A DNA stretch of 40,314 bases from Actinomycetota bacterium (lineage in GTDB: Bacteria; Actinomycetota; Acidimicrobiia; Acidimicrobiales; Ilumatobacteraceae): assembly GCA_005790505.1 (NCBI GenBank), contig SXUP01000021.1, positions 1 through 40,314 on the forward strand, given 5' to 3'. This document shows, in pieces, positions 1,451-23,411 of this stretch; within the stretch, counting starts at the first letter, position 1; each line of letters begins with the position of its first letter. Made by a program: the position numbers and the translations under genes. The notes below the pieces were generated by a model, which was not told the DNA's origin, ran no database searches, and was given only the letters and a program-made list of their open reading frames with translations.

Positions 1451-3604
1451 GTGTCTAGAACCCAACGAACCTTGTCAGAGTTTGATTCTCGCGAATTATT
1501 AGGTTCGTGTGGCATCCCGTTTGCGGGGCAAGAACGTGTACTGAGCGCCAATGAGGCGGCTAAAGCCGCAACAAAAATGGGATTCCCAGTTGTTGTCAAA
1601 CTCGGTGGAGAAAATATCGCCCATAAAACGGAAAGAGGATTGGTTCGACTTGGGGTTTCCTCTGAATCTGAGTGCCTCAAGGCGGCCCAAGAGCTCTTGA
1701 GTAAAGCGACCACCAAAGACGGCGCTGTGCACCTGTTGATTTCTAAAATGGTGTTTGGCGCTCGGGAACTAATTGCAGGCGTCCTTGTTGACCCACAGTT
1801 TGGTCCAACGGTGATGCTCGGAGTGGGAGGAGTTCTAACCGAGGCGATTGGTGATGTTGTTTTTAGACCGGCGCCACTGCAAGCCGCTGATGCTGACGCC
1901 ATGATCAGACAAATTAGATCTCAAAAACTGCTGGCTGAATTTCGAGGGGAAGCAGGAGTGAATAGGCAACAGCTTGCCAGCATTTTGATGGGTCTTTCGG
2001 ATATCGCCTGTATCCGTCAAGACATTTTGTCTATCGATATCAATCCACTAATCATAGAATCAAATGGTTCGGTTGTCGCAGTTGATGGTCTTGTAGAAAT
2101 TGGTGCGCGCCAGAACTCAGGGACGGTTAGGCGAACCGCTTTTACAAACCAACAATTCATGGCGCTGTTTGAGCCGCGGGGTGTATTGGTTGCGGGGGCG
2201 TCAAGTCATCCAGGAAAATTTGGTTTTGTCTCACTGCACAATATTTTGGCAAGTGGTTATGCGGGTGCCGTGTTTGGAACAAATCTTCAAGGCGAGGAGG
2301 TGCTCGGCATTACGACAGTCGCTGACATTGCCGCCCTTCCTGATGATGGCATTGATCTTGTATTTGTTTGCACGCCAGCTTCTGCCAACCTTGATCTATT
2401 GCGAGCATGCGCAAACAAGGGTGTTAAGGCCGCATTTTTAACATCTGCTGGCTACGGGGAAGCAGGAGAACAAGGTCGCTTCGATGAAGCTGAATTGGTT
2501 CGAGTGGCCGACGAACTCGGCATCTTGTTGGCTGGACCAAATGGGCAAGGAGTGGTTTCAACCCCAGTAAACTTATGTGCTCAGATCGTGGCGCCATATC
2601 CACCGCGTGGTTCAATTTCTGTGGCAAGTCAAAGTGGAAACTTTGTCTCAAGTTTTTTAAATTATGCTCGGCAGACAGGCGTGGGCATTAGTCGCGCTGT
2701 GTCGGCAGGGAATGCTGCCTGTTTGGGTGTTGCTGATCTTTTGGAATTTTACGCGACTGACACTGAAACGAAAGTTTCTCTGGCCTATGTCGAAGGAATC
2801 ACAGACGGTAGGGAACTAATGAACCGCATTGGAGCGACAGTTCGCACCACTCCAGTTGTATTGGTTAAGGGAGGCTCTACCCAAATGGGGGCGATGGCTG
2901 CTGCCAGCCACACGGGAGCTCTTGCGGCTGATGATGCGGTCTTTGATGGAGCATGCCGACAGTGGGGCATTTCGCGGGCGGCAACCGTTGAGGAGGCTTT
3001 CGAGGCAGCAGCAACCTTTGCCACGCAACCTTTGCCACGTGGACCGCGCGTTGTGGTGTTGACAACCGCAGGGGGATGGGGTGTTGTTACGGCCGATGCT
3101 ATTGCCCGTGACGGTTTATTGGTGCTCACCGACCTAGCCGATGACTTGAAAGATGCAATTGATAAAAAATTGCCTCCACGATGGAGCAAAAATAATCCCG
3201 TTGATTGCGCTGGTGGTGAAATTCGCGACACCATTCCAGAGGTCATGGAGTTGATCGCTCGACACGACAGCGTTGATGCCGTTATTTATCTCGGACTCGG
3301 AATACAGGCCAATCAAGCGCGTTTAATGCGGGAGGGGTCTTTTTATCCTGATCACGGACTTGAGCGGATTGTGACGTACCACGAGCGCCAAGACGCGCGC
3401 TTTGCCCAGGCAGCACATGACCTAATTATCGCCGTTAACAAACCAATTCTTGTGGCCACCGAATTGGCTGTGGCAGACCCAGGCAATAGTGGTGTAGTTA
3501 CTGTCAAGAACACTGGTCATTTGTGTTATGCCAGCGGCAATCGAGCAGTAACTGCTCTCGGTCACCTCTATCGCTATGCGGTATTTGTCGGGGAATCGCG
3601 GTAA
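1451..3604 (+). CDS. ADP-forming acyl-CoA synthetase / acetate-CoA ligase family protein
   Basis: About 717 residues, matching fused alpha-beta NDP-forming acyl-CoA ligases. The N-terminal third is an ATP-grasp domain (FPVVVKLGGENIAHKTERGL and, later, GPTVMLGVGGVLTEA). The middle is a CoA-binding Rossmann domain (RGVLVAGASSHPGKFGFVSL) followed by succinyl-CoA-ligase-like domains with ISVASQSGNF and MAAASHTGALAADD; the latter holds the His expected to be phosphorylated. The ATP-grasp-first order is a known permutation of the family. The enzyme interconverts an acyl-CoA plus ADP and phosphate with the free acid plus ATP; substrate unknown. The start may be TTG 1442 or GTG 1451; TACGGT lies 8 nt before the GTG. 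Its position behind the TetR gene hints at acyl-group metabolism. Confidence 0.85.
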   Translation: MSRTQRTLSEFDSRELLGSCGIPFAGQERVLSANEAAKAATKMGFPVVVKLGGENIAHKTERGLVRLGVSSESECLKAAQELLSKATTKDGAVHLLISKMVFGARELIAGVLVDPQFGPTVMLGVGGVLTEAIGDVVFRPAPLQAADADAMIRQIRSQKLLAEFRGEAGVNRQQLASILMGLSDIACIRQDILSIDINPLIIESNGSVVAVDGLVEIGARQNSGTVRRTAFTNQQFMALFEPRGVLVAGASSHPGKFGFVSLHNILASGYAGAVFGTNLQGEEVLGITTVADIAALPDDGIDLVFVCTPASANLDLLRACANKGVKAAFLTSAGYGEAGEQGRFDEAELVRVADELGILLAGPNGQGVVSTPVNLCAQIVAPYPPRGSISVASQSGNFVSSFLNYARQTGVGISRAVSAGNAACLGVADLLEFYATDTETKVSLAYVEGITDGRELMNRIGATVRTTPVVLVKGGSTQMGAMAAASHTGALAADDAVFDGACRQWGISRAATVEEAFEAAATFATQPLPRGPRVVVLTTAGGWGVVTADAIARDGLLVLTDLADDLKDAIDKKLPPRWSKNNPVDCAGGEIRDTIPEVMELIARHDSVDAVIYLGLGIQANQARLMREGSFYPDHGLERIVTYHERQDARFAQAAHDLIIAVNKPILVATELAVADPGNSGVVTVKNTGHLCYASGNRAVTALGHLYRYAVFVGESR

Positions 3605-3608
3605 CTCG

Positions 3609-5003
3609 ATGAGACGTGCAGCGCGTCCAGCACGGGTTGTTGCGATTGGAGGCACATTTGTCTTAGTGCTTCTTCTTGTCGGACTTTCTTACACGACGAG
3701 TGTTGCCACGCGAGTCAACAATAATGACGAAGCTGTGGAATCAGGAACATCGATACTGGTACCAGTTCTATCGGCAAGACGAACGCCAACTGTATTGTCA
3801 GCTGTTACACGAATCGGCAAGTTAACGAGTGGGTTGTCAACCCTAAATAAAAAAATACCAAAAAACTCGTGCTTGGTTGTCTCATGGATGGGGCGTCAAC
3901 TAATTTCTACTCGTGCGGATACGCCTTTGACGCCTGCCAGCGCATTGAAACTTTTCACCGGTTTCGCTGCACTTCGGGCACTTGGTCCTTCTCATACTTT
4001 TACGACAACCGTCAAGGGAGAAATTAAAGACGGTGTGGTGACGGGTGATTTATATCTAATCGGAGGGGGAGACCCTCTGCTGGTGCGACGCGACTATGTG
4101 GCCAATGAAAAGTATCCAACCTTGTCGCCTACCTACATGGAGGTGCTCGCAGATGCAATTGTCGCCGCAGGAGTTCAGACAATATCGGGCACGATTGTTG
4201 GTGTGGACGATCGCTTTGATGACGTTCGCTATCCGTCTACATGGCCCACAAGTTTCTATGCTGCCGAGGGCGGACCACTTGGGGCTCTGATGTCTAGTGA
4301 TGGATCGGCCTTGGGGCAGGCCCTAAAACCAGACGATCCAGCGATTGGTGCAGCCGATGACTTGCATGCGCTGCTTGGTTTACGCGGTGTAGTGATGACG
4401 GGGCAGTCGAAAAATGGTTCTGTTGCCGAGTCTGTTCCAACAATTACAGAACTAACTTCTGCTCCGTTGTCAGAAATTGTGCGAGAGATGTTGGTGAACA
4501 GCGATAACAACACCGCTGAACTATTGCTCAAAGAAATGGGGTTTGTCGTAAAAAAGTCGGGGACGACAGCAGATGGTCTAGCGGTTGTGATGGAGCAACT
4601 CAGCCTGGCAAAGATCCCTGTTGCTGGCTTGAGTATTTTGGATGGCTCAGGCTTGACGACTGAAAGCACGGCTACATGTTCGGCACTCATGGCAGTCCTG
4701 ACCCAAGAGAGCGCGACATTGCCAACGATGCTCGCAGTCGCAGGAGAAACTGGAACACTGGGCTCGGTCTTTGGGGGGCAATCCATCAAGGGTCGCCTTG
4801 TTGCCAAAACTGGCACCCTACGTAACGTAAAGAGCATCGCTGGATATGTGCCCCTCAGTGGCGCTGACCCAGTGTTATTTTCTTTCATGGTTAACAAAGT
4901 GGGCATAGACAATCAAAGTCAATATCGACCTTTGTGGTACGAATTAGGCGATGCGTTAGATCGAGCATCGCCCAATCCACGTCCTGAGGATCTGGCACCA
5001 TAG
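3609..5003 (+). CDS. dacB: D-alanyl-D-alanine carboxypeptidase/endopeptidase, PBP4 (S13) family
   Basis: Penicillin-binding protein acting on peptidoglycan stem peptides outside the membrane; 464 residues, normal for S13. Residues 9-28 are a signal anchor or signal peptide. The three active-site motifs are present: SALK (S111, K114), SDN (298-300) and KTG (400-402). The long insert between the first two motifs is typical of PBP4. ATG 3609 lies 4 nt after the preceding stop; an upstream extension to 3576 would only overlap that gene. Mycobacterial genomes carry a homologue (Rv3627c) next to tilS/hpt; that context is absent here. Confidence 0.92.
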   Translation: MRRAARPARVVAIGGTFVLVLLLVGLSYTTSVATRVNNNDEAVESGTSILVPVLSARRTPTVLSAVTRIGKLTSGLSTLNKKIPKNSCLVVSWMGRQLISTRADTPLTPASALKLFTGFAALRALGPSHTFTTTVKGEIKDGVVTGDLYLIGGGDPLLVRRDYVANEKYPTLSPTYMEVLADAIVAAGVQTISGTIVGVDDRFDDVRYPSTWPTSFYAAEGGPLGALMSSDGSALGQALKPDDPAIGAADDLHALLGLRGVVMTGQSKNGSVAESVPTITELTSAPLSEIVREMLVNSDNNTAELLLKEMGFVVKKSGTTADGLAVVMEQLSLAKIPVAGLSILDGSGLTTESTATCSALMAVLTQESATLPTMLAVAGETGTLGSVFGGQSIKGRLVAKTGTLRNVKSIAGYVPLSGADPVLFSFMVNKVGIDNQSQYRPLWYELGDALDRASPNPRPEDLAP

Positions 5004-21106: not shown

Positions 21107-22702
21107 GTGACGGTGTATGTTCCTGAGGACTTTTCAGACTCTGAGGCTCAAATTCTTCGGCGGTATTTTACTAACTTAGATCTTCCTGTTTTCGCCCTCG
21201 TCAATCTTCCAGAAGTCGTCAAAGGCGCTCTTTTTGCTCGTTACAGTCGCAGTCCTCGCAGTCTTCGACGATTATTTTTGGACGAGTTCGTGGGGGACCT
21301 TGACATCACCGGTGACCAGAACGTGGACGCAACAATCGGGCTTGAACGAGCTGAAGGGTTGTACGAGAAAGTTTTTTTTGAATACGGGGATGACTCTGTT
21401 GCGCAACTCGGTGGCGTTCATTTGGCGTGTGAACAGGCATCAAATATTTTGACGAAAGTTTTGGAGTGGGGACGCTTGATGAGTTATCTCGAGCAAAGCA
21501 CTCGTTATATTTCCTACGACGAAAGACTCGGTGGAAGGTATCGGTTCTTTCGCGACCCTGAAGTTTTAGCGAGTAAACTCGCTAATCGATATGTAGGCGA
21601 CATGGATCGGATGTTTGACTCATACAGCGAACTCGCTAGCAAGGTCACCGAACATGTACGTCAAACAGTTCGCCAAACCGATGGAGTCAGCGATTTCGTT
21701 TTTCGCCAAGCGACTCGTGCCAAAGCGCTTGACGCAGTACGTGGGGCACTGCCGGCGGCATCTTTGTCAAATGTCGGAATCTACGGCAGCGGACAGGCAT
21801 ACGAACAGTTATTGCTTCGAATGCGGGCTCATCCACTGCCAGAGGCCCGTCATTATGCCGACATGATGTTGGGGGAACTGCGTAAAGTTATTCCAAGTTT
21901 TCTAAAACGCGTCGACATTAAAGAGCGTGGTGGAGAATGGTCGCAATACATCTCTGACACACATGAAGACACAGCAGTCCTGGTTGATGAACTTTTTAGC
22001 GATCAGATCGCCGATGAGTCCGATGAAGTAAGTCTTGTTGGTTTTGACCCCGACGGCGAAAACAAGGTAATTGCAGCGATCTGCTATGCACAGTCACATC
22101 TTCCCGAGTCCCAACTCCTCGCCCTCGTAGATCGCATGACTGCTCAGGACAAGACTGCTCTTTTGTTGGCTTATGTTGGCGAACGAAAAAACAGACGCCA
22201 CCGCCCGGGACGAGCATTTGAGCGAACTGACTATCGGTTTGACATTCTGTCTGATTATGGTGCTTTTCGAGATATGCAACGCCACCGCATGCTGACCATT
22301 GAGTGGCAACCCTTGACGCCGTACCACGGCTTTACTCGTCCCGAACTACTCGTCAACTCTGGTTGCGCTGAGCAATTTGACGAGGTTATGGAGCGCTCTA
22401 GAGGCCTGTATGAGGCTCTCGGTGAACATTTTAGCCAACAGGCGCCTTACGCCGTCTCGATGGCTTACAGAATGCGCTACGTAATGCAATTCAATGCTCG
22501 CGAGGCCATGCACATGCTTGAATTGCGATCTTCGCCCCAGGGACATCCTTCTTATCGGCGCGTTTCCCTAGAAATGCATAACCAGATTGCGAGCGTGGCT
22601 GGGCACAAGGCCATTGCCGCAGCGATGAGTCACATGACTACCGAGGCTCCCGAGCTCGAACGCCTTGATTCCGAGCGACGTGCTGAACAGCGCCGTTCTT
22701 GA
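21107..22702 (+). CDS. Double-length ThyX-like protein (FAD-dependent thymidylate synthase family)
   Basis: 531 residues, about twice normal ThyX, apparently two ThyX-like domains (about 30-270 and 300-520). Domain 1 carries EYGDDSVAQLGG and SYLEQSTRYISY (126-137), the C-terminal half of the ThyX signature RHRxxSxNEQSxRY, but WGR replaces RHR. Domain 2 carries RHRMLT (392-397), the first half, but lacks NEQSxRY. Each domain therefore keeps half of the motif. Double-length ThyX homologues are annotated in several phyla; whether they make dTMP is unsettled. GTG start with TAGGCT 8 nt upstream. Confidence 0.8.
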   Translation: MTVYVPEDFSDSEAQILRRYFTNLDLPVFALVNLPEVVKGALFARYSRSPRSLRRLFLDEFVGDLDITGDQNVDATIGLERAEGLYEKVFFEYGDDSVAQLGGVHLACEQASNILTKVLEWGRLMSYLEQSTRYISYDERLGGRYRFFRDPEVLASKLANRYVGDMDRMFDSYSELASKVTEHVRQTVRQTDGVSDFVFRQATRAKALDAVRGALPAASLSNVGIYGSGQAYEQLLLRMRAHPLPEARHYADMMLGELRKVIPSFLKRVDIKERGGEWSQYISDTHEDTAVLVDELFSDQIADESDEVSLVGFDPDGENKVIAAICYAQSHLPESQLLALVDRMTAQDKTALLLAYVGERKNRRHRPGRAFERTDYRFDILSDYGAFRDMQRHRMLTIEWQPLTPYHGFTRPELLVNSGCAEQFDEVMERSRGLYEALGEHFSQQAPYAVSMAYRMRYVMQFNAREAMHMLELRSSPQGHPSYRRVSLEMHNQIASVAGHKAIAAAMSHMTTEAPELERLDSERRAEQRRS

Positions 22703-22862
22703 TTTCTGGCCTGTTAGACCAGGGGTCAACCTGATTCTGTAAGAAATCTTGCTGTAATACGTCTCGAAGGCTCGTTTTGTGTCTAGTATCCCGCCGCGTG
22801 GTTTGTCGCAAAAATAATTGTGACGGTTGGCGCAATGCTCAGTTGGGCAGAAAGGCATCCAA

Positions 22863-23411
22863 ATGGCTGCAAAGAAAAAAGTAGCGAAGGCGCAGGCTAA
22901 GCCAAAAGCGAAGGCGCAAGCTAAGCCAAAAGTGAAGCCCAAGCCAGCCACAGAGATCGAGCCTGAAGAAGCCGACCTCGACCCAGACGATCTTGACGAT
23001 CTTGACGTTGACCCCGAAATACTTCTTGATGATGAAGTCGATCTAGACGATGAAGAATTTGAATCAGACGAGGAGGGGTCTGACGACATAGATGATGACG
23101 CCAGCATGGGCGCAACGATCGTTTCTCGCCCAGGCTCACTTGACGACGATGACGAAGAAGATCTCACGACACCGGATGACGTCGAAGATGACTTGAGCAA
23201 AATCCTAAAAGAAAAACTTGTGGCGGCCGAAGAAGAAGTCAATGAAGACGAAGAATTAGAAGTTGACGATCGTGGACTGGCTGATGACCATCTGCAGCCC
23301 AAAAGAGATGATGAGCAACTGTGCTCAAGTTGTTTTTTGCTGGTTCGCAGTGCGGCGCCTTTTTGTCCAGTCGGCGATGATTCCTGTCCAATTTTTGTCA
23401 CAAAGTCATGA
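22863..23411 (+). CDS. Acidic DUF4193-like protein with C-terminal Cys motif
   Basis: 182 residues in three zones: a Lys/Ala/Pro-rich N-terminus (about 1-35) with two copies of AKAQAKPK; a very acidic Asp/Glu-rich middle (about 38-155); and a C-terminus with LCSSCFLLVRS, matching the CSSCFLV motif of actinobacterial DUF4193 proteins (for example Rv2699c), plus two later Cys. The C-terminal cysteines probably bind zinc; function unknown. ATG 22863 has AAAGG 8 nt upstream. Its stop overlaps the next ATG (ATGA). The protein is longer and far more acidic than typical DUF4193 members. Confidence 0.75.
   Translation: MAAKKKVAKAQAKPKAKAQAKPKVKPKPATEIEPEEADLDPDDLDDLDVDPEILLDDEVDLDDEEFESDEEGSDDIDDDASMGATIVSRPGSLDDDDEEDLTTPDDVEDDLSKILKEKLVAAEEEVNEDEELEVDDRGLADDHLQPKRDDEQLCSSCFLLVRSAAPFCPVGDDSCPIFVTKS
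22884..22931 (+). repeat. 24-bp tandem duplication inside the DUF4193 gene
   Basis: Two adjacent 24-bp units (22884-22907 and 22908-22931) differ at one base (GCGCAG versus GCGCAA) and each encodes AKAQAKPK. A near-perfect tandem copy of this kind can change copy number by slippage, altering the basic tail length without a frameshift. Confidence 0.85.

Follow-up and report, generated by a model that had tools for sequence, protein, structure and literature searches.

A probable FAD-dependent thymidylate synthase built from two fused and specialised ThyX halves

What can be the function of a protein that carries two ThyX-like domains, neither of which holds the complete catalytic signature? 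The question is raised by one gene in a 40,314-nucleotide stretch of an actinobacterial genome (the window, meaning here the whole stretch that was analysed), whose boundaries are as the first-pass annotation gave them and are listed with its parts in Table 1. That annotation had described a first domain (D1) that keeps SYLEQSTRY but has WGR for RHR, and a second (D2) that keeps RHR but has lost NEQSxRY, and alignment with canonical ThyX bears this out. Residues W121-G122-R123 stand at the R-H-R position of D1, where E129, S131, R133 and Y134 are kept; R392-H393-R394 are kept in D2 and the S-x-R-Y positions are lost. The contiguous signature RHRx7SxR is therefore found in neither domain. Two outcomes had been envisaged for such a pair, the rebuilding of a complete site from complementary halves or the acquisition of another function. 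The evidence points, with high probability, to an FAD-dependent thymidylate synthase made of two fused, specialised ThyX halves with composite sites, which is likely the sole route to dTMP.

Table 1. Position of the double ThyX gene in the window, with its two halves and the motifs that distinguish them
Feature	Coordinates	Strand	Evidence and remarks
Double ThyX gene	21107..22702	+	ORF of 531 aa with GTG start; the start MTVYVPE is common to close relatives
D1, residues 20-295, ThyX fold, predicted dUMP-binding half (role C)	21164..21991	+	hhalign 99.6; AlphaFold2 model of D1 alone, Z 14.8 to M. tuberculosis (Mtb) ThyX
D2, residues 304-531, ThyX fold, predicted FAD-binding half (role A; most of role B in bacterial-type rows)	22016..22699	+	hhalign 99.3; Z 16.9 to T. 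maritima ThyX
D1 WGR (121-123), degenerate RHR counterpart	21467..21475	+	Alignment, 54 bacterial-type rows
D1 SYLEQSTRY (126-134), E86/S88/R90/Y91 equivalents, predicted substrate binding and tyrosine lid	21482..21508	+	E129, S131, R133 invariant in A3 (56 rows)
D1 D209..R212, counterparts of T. maritima E144 and R147	21731..21742	+	Invariant in A3; D 94/94, R 94/94
D2 HRPGRAFE (365-372), counterpart of the HxTPFE loop (H53, E58)	22199..22222	+	H365 50/54 and E372 54/54 bacterial-type rows; most viral rows differ
D2 RHR (392-394)	22280..22288	+	94/96 rows; RHN in 2
D2 NAR (463-465), N163 and R165 equivalents (FAD AMP tail)	22493..22501	+	R465 54/54 bacterial-type rows
D2 ELR (472-474), R174 equivalent (Mtb R199), predicted dUMP contact from subunit A	22520..22528	+	R474 invariant in A3; role per PMC6514825

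Membership of the family can be judged from profiles and from folds. The Pfam Thy1 profile (PF02511) matches two stretches of the protein with 121.2 bits against a cut-off of 24.8, which places it in the superfamily. The thyX equivalog TIGR02170 gives 44.4 bits against a cut-off of 87.9, and the protein is for this reason filed as a double-domain Thy1-superfamily variant that works like ThyX. A phmmer search of the PDB with the window protein alone returned no ThyX, and a profile (A1) reached ThyX chains there at best with E 0.026. Pairwise hhalign against a reference alignment of 11 canonical ThyX sequences gives the probabilities in Table 1, and direct comparison of D1 with D2 a probability of only 48. 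The monomer structure prediction proposed in the first-pass annotation found a ThyX fold in each half. Using a folding alignment of 56 rows (A3; 19-93% identity to the window protein), AlphaFold2 modelled the whole chain with a mean pLDDT of 90.9 and a pTM of 0.89, and on our reading of the model the main helices and strands run in the same order in D1 and D2. The D2 model (residues 304-513) matches T. maritima ThyX with Z 16.9, at 2.3 Å over 190 residues. D1 folded alone (mean pLDDT 88.1) matches M. tuberculosis ThyX, in complex with FdUMP and FAD, with Z 14.8, at 3.3 Å over 206 residues, and the best entry of another fold in the D1 search scores just 4.9. PolB (4p5a, 4p5b) turns up in the structure searches with D1 and with D2. 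On these models, then, D1 and D2 are both ThyX folds, each sharing the fold of the canonical ThyX/FDTS enzymes (T. maritima TM0449, M. tuberculosis, H. pylori; PF02511, TIGR02170). Unlike canonical ThyX, the double has two domains per chain, with RHR and SxRY on different halves. A side observation concerns the 3' end of the gene, where a 277-aa serine-rich ORF (22568-23401, minus strand) runs antisense to it and to the downstream gene for an acidic protein; it is probably a spurious mirror of that low-complexity acidic gene.

The division of the motifs is conserved over a wide range of relatives. We collected 99 doubles, dropped 3 duplicates and aligned the remaining 96, which fall into 24 clusters at 50% identity and comprise 54 bacterial-type rows (3 of them, L105-L107, from viral contigs), 40 viral rows and 2 from Bacillaceae/Paenibacillaceae plasmids. 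RHR is missing from D1 in all 96, as is the full S..R-Y set from D2, and the S and R of SxR are present in D1 of every one. The lid tyrosine of D1 is kept in 91 (A in 2, F in 2 and K in 1 of the others), and RHR stands in D2 of 94, with RHN in the other 2. Since the split is seen in all 96 rows and across 24 clusters, it is not due to chance. The invariant residues of the A3 alignment are E109, S112, K117, E129, S131, R133, D209 and R212 in D1, and R388, D389, Q391, R392, H393, R394, R474, H480 and R484 in D2. A scan of genome contigs gave 584 relatives among 585 pattern matches; in the best 80 of these, almost all titled acidimicrobia or actinobacteria and compared for the placement of these two motifs only, no RHR precedes E-x-STRY, and one is found 230-310 residues after it, at 80 of 80 loci. 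At the degenerate site of D1, over the 54 bacterial-type rows, the R78 position is W in 38, R in 13, D in 2 and K in 1, and the H79 position is G in 47, P in 4, C in 2 and S in 1. The third RHR residue, R123, is retained in all 54 and R238 (the R174 equivalent) in 46, so the A role of D1 is broken but not wholly erased. Between close relatives dN is about 0.03-0.05, the only usable rate because dS was returned as -1 in five of six comparisons (1.99 in the other).

How could the two halves form a working site? The first-pass annotation had stated that an ordinary ThyX site is made from residues of different subunits of a tetramer, in agreement with a structural review (PMC6514825, section 9). 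In one such site, RHR (Mtb residues 95-97) and R199 come from subunit A, subunit B offers S71 and R190 to FAD, and the contribution of subunit C consists of R87, S105, R107, the Q103 backbone and the lid tyrosine Y108 (PMC6514825, section 9). Mutants mark Ser88 and Tyr91 as critical in ThyX (PMC11940539). The A set maps to R392, H393, R394 and R474 of D2, and most of the C set to E129 (at the Q103 position), S131, R133 and Y134 of D1. The chain of the double thus holds the A residues and most of the C residues of canonical ThyX once each. The exception is Mtb R87, which is replaced by N113 in D1 and by Y384 in D2; T. maritima also lacks it. On the review's assignment of subunits, with RHR and R474 in D2 and SxRY in D1, D2 would stand in for subunit A and D1 for subunit C.

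A mechanism can be proposed on this basis. Two fused, specialised ThyX domains would form an FAD-dependent thymidylate synthase of the Thy1/ThyX superfamily, in which D2 is predicted to supply the flavin-side residues (RHR, the R174 equivalent, the H53-like loop and NAR) and D1 the dUMP-side residues (the equivalents of E86, S88, R90, Y91, E/D144 and R147). By analogy with published ThyX structures, two chains would pair into a pseudo-tetramer (D1, D2, D1', D2'), and each live site would take FAD from one D2, and dUMP with the tyrosine lid from one D1. The other two sites would have to draw RHR from D1 and SxRY from D2, and should be dead. The dimer would then carry two FAD and two working sites, where the canonical homotetramer has four. 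The predicted reaction, dUMP + methylene-tetrahydrofolate -> dTMP + tetrahydrofolate, would release tetrahydrofolate, in agreement with the absence of thyA and of the PF00186 type of dihydrofolate reductase (DHFR) described below.

The genomic setting bears directly on this proposal, as a canonical thyA or thyX elsewhere in the genome had been named in the first-pass annotation, together with failed complementation, as an argument for another function. Neither was found: in the genome of origin (2.01 Mb, 97.4% complete), thyA gave no match and Thy1 matched the double ThyX gene alone, and neither a PF00265 thymidine kinase nor a PF00186 DHFR was found. It has one dTMP kinase, and its single dNK match sits inside that gene. 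The pattern extends to the order, sampled here by 61 genomes including this one, of which 32 are good (at least 90% complete, at most 5% contamination). The double is present in 56 of the 61, in all 32 good genomes and in 30 of 30 genera; the five genomes without it are 62-82% complete. Both thyA (PF00303) and PF00186 DHFR are absent from all 61. The absence of this DHFR is expected where dTMP comes from ThyX chemistry, and the double shares with canonical ThyX a niche without thyA and PF00186 DHFR. A PF00265 thymidine kinase occurs in 11 of the 61 genomes and in 8 of the 32 good ones.

Several observations in the order concern single assemblies. Outside the doubles, one weak Thy1 match is left in the 61 genomes (G019 C247:7348-7728, 25.9 bits, in a 514-aa frame); the same genome has a strong thymidine kinase match (C76:3856-4374) unseen in the other sampled genomes of its genus, and both extras are possibly contamination or a phage contig. 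Genome G021 has two different doubles (C4, C184), 93% and 72% identical to that of the window, which suggests mixed strains or a second copy. The best named match to the window protein is L108, from a metagenome-assembled genome (MAG) titled Acidimicrobiaceae bacterium isolate ZE-17mar17-69, with 93% protein identity, which makes the genome of origin presumably that of an acidimicrobial actinobacterium. Two MAGs titled Bifidobacterium breve (L110 and L184) carry acidimicrobial-type doubles 75% and 64% identical to it, and their titles look mislabelled.

Beyond the order, 296 genomes of the phylum were surveyed, with a double called at E < 1e-50 to the A1 profile and a canonical ThyX at a best Thy1 E < 1e-30, both thresholds of our own. 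A double was found in 95. None of these has a canonical ThyX, and three have any thyA match (full-length in two pieces in G246, a fragment in G184, a weak partial match in G270). Among the 201 genomes without a double, 191 have a canonical ThyX or some thyA match, however weak, and 10 have neither at these thresholds. A strong thyA (E < 1e-60) or canonical ThyX occurs in 1 of the 95 and in 153 of the 201 (Fisher p 1.3e-39, a value that overstates the case because the genomes are related and the thresholds were set by us). The double therefore occupies the place held in other lineages by one of the two known synthases. Exclusion is not absolute, as G246 has both a double and thyA. The two pieces of the latter (C39:1968-2603 and 3602-3886) lie about 1 kb apart, possibly owing to an intervening element or to decay of the gene after its replacement.

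The proposal that a fused pair rebuilds a complete site from complementary halves is thus supported by the two subunit sets, by conservation at a distance, and by the absence of thyA and PF00186 DHFR and, in the genome of origin, of another ThyX. Could the protein instead be another uridine-nucleotide C5 methylase, or some other flavin or nucleotide enzyme, with dTMP coming from elsewhere? PolB, which shares the fold and methylates UMP/dUMP, does appear among the matches of both halves, and a TIGR02170 score under the cut-off is what such an enzyme might give. We nevertheless regard this as unlikely, given a genome that has a dTMP kinase and no other known thymidylate synthase or PF00265 thymidine kinase, the presence of the double in every good genome of the order, and a phylum sample in which it hardly ever shares a genome with thyA or canonical ThyX. 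A new function argued from the broken motifs was rejected on the same genomic niche and on the complementarity of the residues. Thymidine salvage was likewise rejected as the source of dTMP, as the genome has no PF00265 kinase and the one dNK match it does have falls within the dTMP kinase gene.

Degeneration of one half is possible in a fused pair, and the loss of RHR from D1 could mean that this half is a pseudo-domain serving only structure or regulation, with all catalysis in D2, or that the roles are the other way round. However, a decaying half is not expected to retain the complement of its partner. The dUMP-side residues that D2 has lost are among the most conserved in D1 (E129, S131, R133, D209 and R212 are invariant over the 56 rows of A3), and RHR with R474, lost or broken in D1, is invariant in D2 over the same rows, so that a single working half seems very improbable. 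A separate ThyX-like subunit that completes the sites would be in keeping with canonical sites drawn from three subunits (PMC6514825), yet both residue sets already lie on one chain and the genome has no other Thy1 match, which makes such a requirement extremely unlikely. The double is most likely a working thymidylate synthase, as predicted from its sequence and genomic niche, and probably the only route of the organism to dTMP.

Relatives of the double are also carried by viruses and plasmids. They were found on 44 IMG/VR loci, of which 17 lie on contigs of at least 200 kb (up to 529 kb), and in isolated large phages: in Tunturiibacter phage Tunturi_5, where the gene directly follows that of dCMP deaminase and lies three genes from dUTPase, and in Vibrio phages, where it is annotated as hypothetical. 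Ten viral neighbour genes were picked by hand from 8 viral loci, of 19 listed. Five of these carry domains for nucleotide or DNA synthesis, matching IMP dehydrogenase, NT5C deoxynucleotidase, ribonucleotide reductase (weakly), DNA polymerase A and dNMP kinase; two belong to other families and three have no match. The viral doubles (Tunturi_5, Vibrio phage vB_VmeM-Yong XC31 and IMG/VR) share the RHR/SxR split of the window protein in all 40 aligned rows, even though the viral rows of A3, L105-L107 excepted, are only 19-28% identical to it. PHROG 36506 (thymidylate synthase, 491 positions) has matches to three phage doubles as well as to the window protein. A0A7D4 of Microcystis phage LMM01 (491 aa) is the top BFVD structure match, over 532 alignment columns, with a TM-score of 0.58 and an rmsd of 13.3 Å, values that point to a different, or an uncertain, arrangement of the halves. 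Two viral loci have features of their own: the DNA polymerase A at L205:3-2210, upstream of a large-phage double, has intein splicing and HNH domains, and the double ThyX frame on viral contig L188 (543 codons) meets a stop in frame at codon 509, which may be the true end of the protein.

On plasmids, ten records carry a protein that aligns with that of the window over most of its length and is in every case annotated as FAD-dependent thymidylate synthase; they include Parabacteroides distasonis (45.5%), Miltoncostaea, Euzebya, Bacillus and Paenibacillus. The two aligned rows of Bacillus (L230) and Paenibacillus (L231), of 7 Bacillaceae/Paenibacillaceae records, have RHN in D2 and the R165 equivalent in D1. 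Each is encoded on a plasmid of some 200 kb, downstream of DUF1257 and DUF2997 genes; the two form a separate subtype, perhaps on phage-plasmids. The ThyX of Chlamydia trachomatis (CT632) is reportedly unusually long and active, according to a 2005 paper in J. Biol. Chem.

A second split concerns the residues that hold the FAD tail. In the bacterial-type rows these are found in D2: the R165 equivalent, R465, is there in every row (two also have it in D1), N463 in 52 of 54, and H365 and E372 nearly always (Table 1). In viral doubles, H53 and R165 are mostly found in D1. With K counted as R, the R165 position of D1 is R/K in 36 of the 40 viral rows (27 in D1 only, 9 in both halves); of the other four rows, two have the residue in D2 alone and two lack it altogether. 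The H53 position of D1 is H in 38; the H53 position of D2 is less sure than that of R165 because the region is gapped. Exceptions in both groups make this a trend and not an absolute rule. In a tree of the halves (71 tips, 182 columns), all 30 D2 form one clade with support of 100, the doubles separate from canonical ThyX with support of 99, and D1 forms a clade with support of only 45. Independent fusions in bacteria and phages were rejected on the first two values, and the third means that a single fusion is favoured, not proven. We tentatively suggest that one fusion may have been followed by two ways of sharing the three-subunit site, with A in D2 and C in D1 in both groups, and the B contribution (R165, with H53 and N163) in D2 in the bacterial type and mostly in D1 in large-phage doubles. 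The quaternary architecture would then have been re-wired while the chemistry stayed the same. Ser71 of the B set fits poorly with a whole B role in D2, since this serine is retained in D1 (S97) but absent from D2, and stays in D1 in bacterial-type and viral rows alike. If the suggestion is true, then by analogy with a 222 tetramer D2 would pair with D2' across the FAD pair in bacteria and with D1 in phages, and either placement would leave two live and two dead sites per dimer. These two placements are the ones that would keep D2 and D1 in the A-C relation.

The double-domain family has itself been seen before and is named by public annotation. A duplication of the ThyX domain in Chloroflexi was noted in 2009 and called uncharacterised (PMC3224940, Biol Direct), in a passage that describes it without a residue split, a mechanism or a sequence. 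No later study of duplicated ThyX was found in the open-licence literature searched, and within that literature the conserved division of RHR and SxRY and the group-specific split of the FAD-tail residues appear new. The double appears to be the sole source of dTMP of the actinobacterial order sampled, being present in 32 of 32 good genomes where thyA is found in none of 61, and it is carried by large phages as well. It can be regarded as a natural experiment, in which evolution has dissected a site of three identical subunits into specialised halves, and the split points to which residue acts from which subunit with no need for mutagenesis. The prediction that follows, a ThyX with just two of its four sites, can easily be tested.
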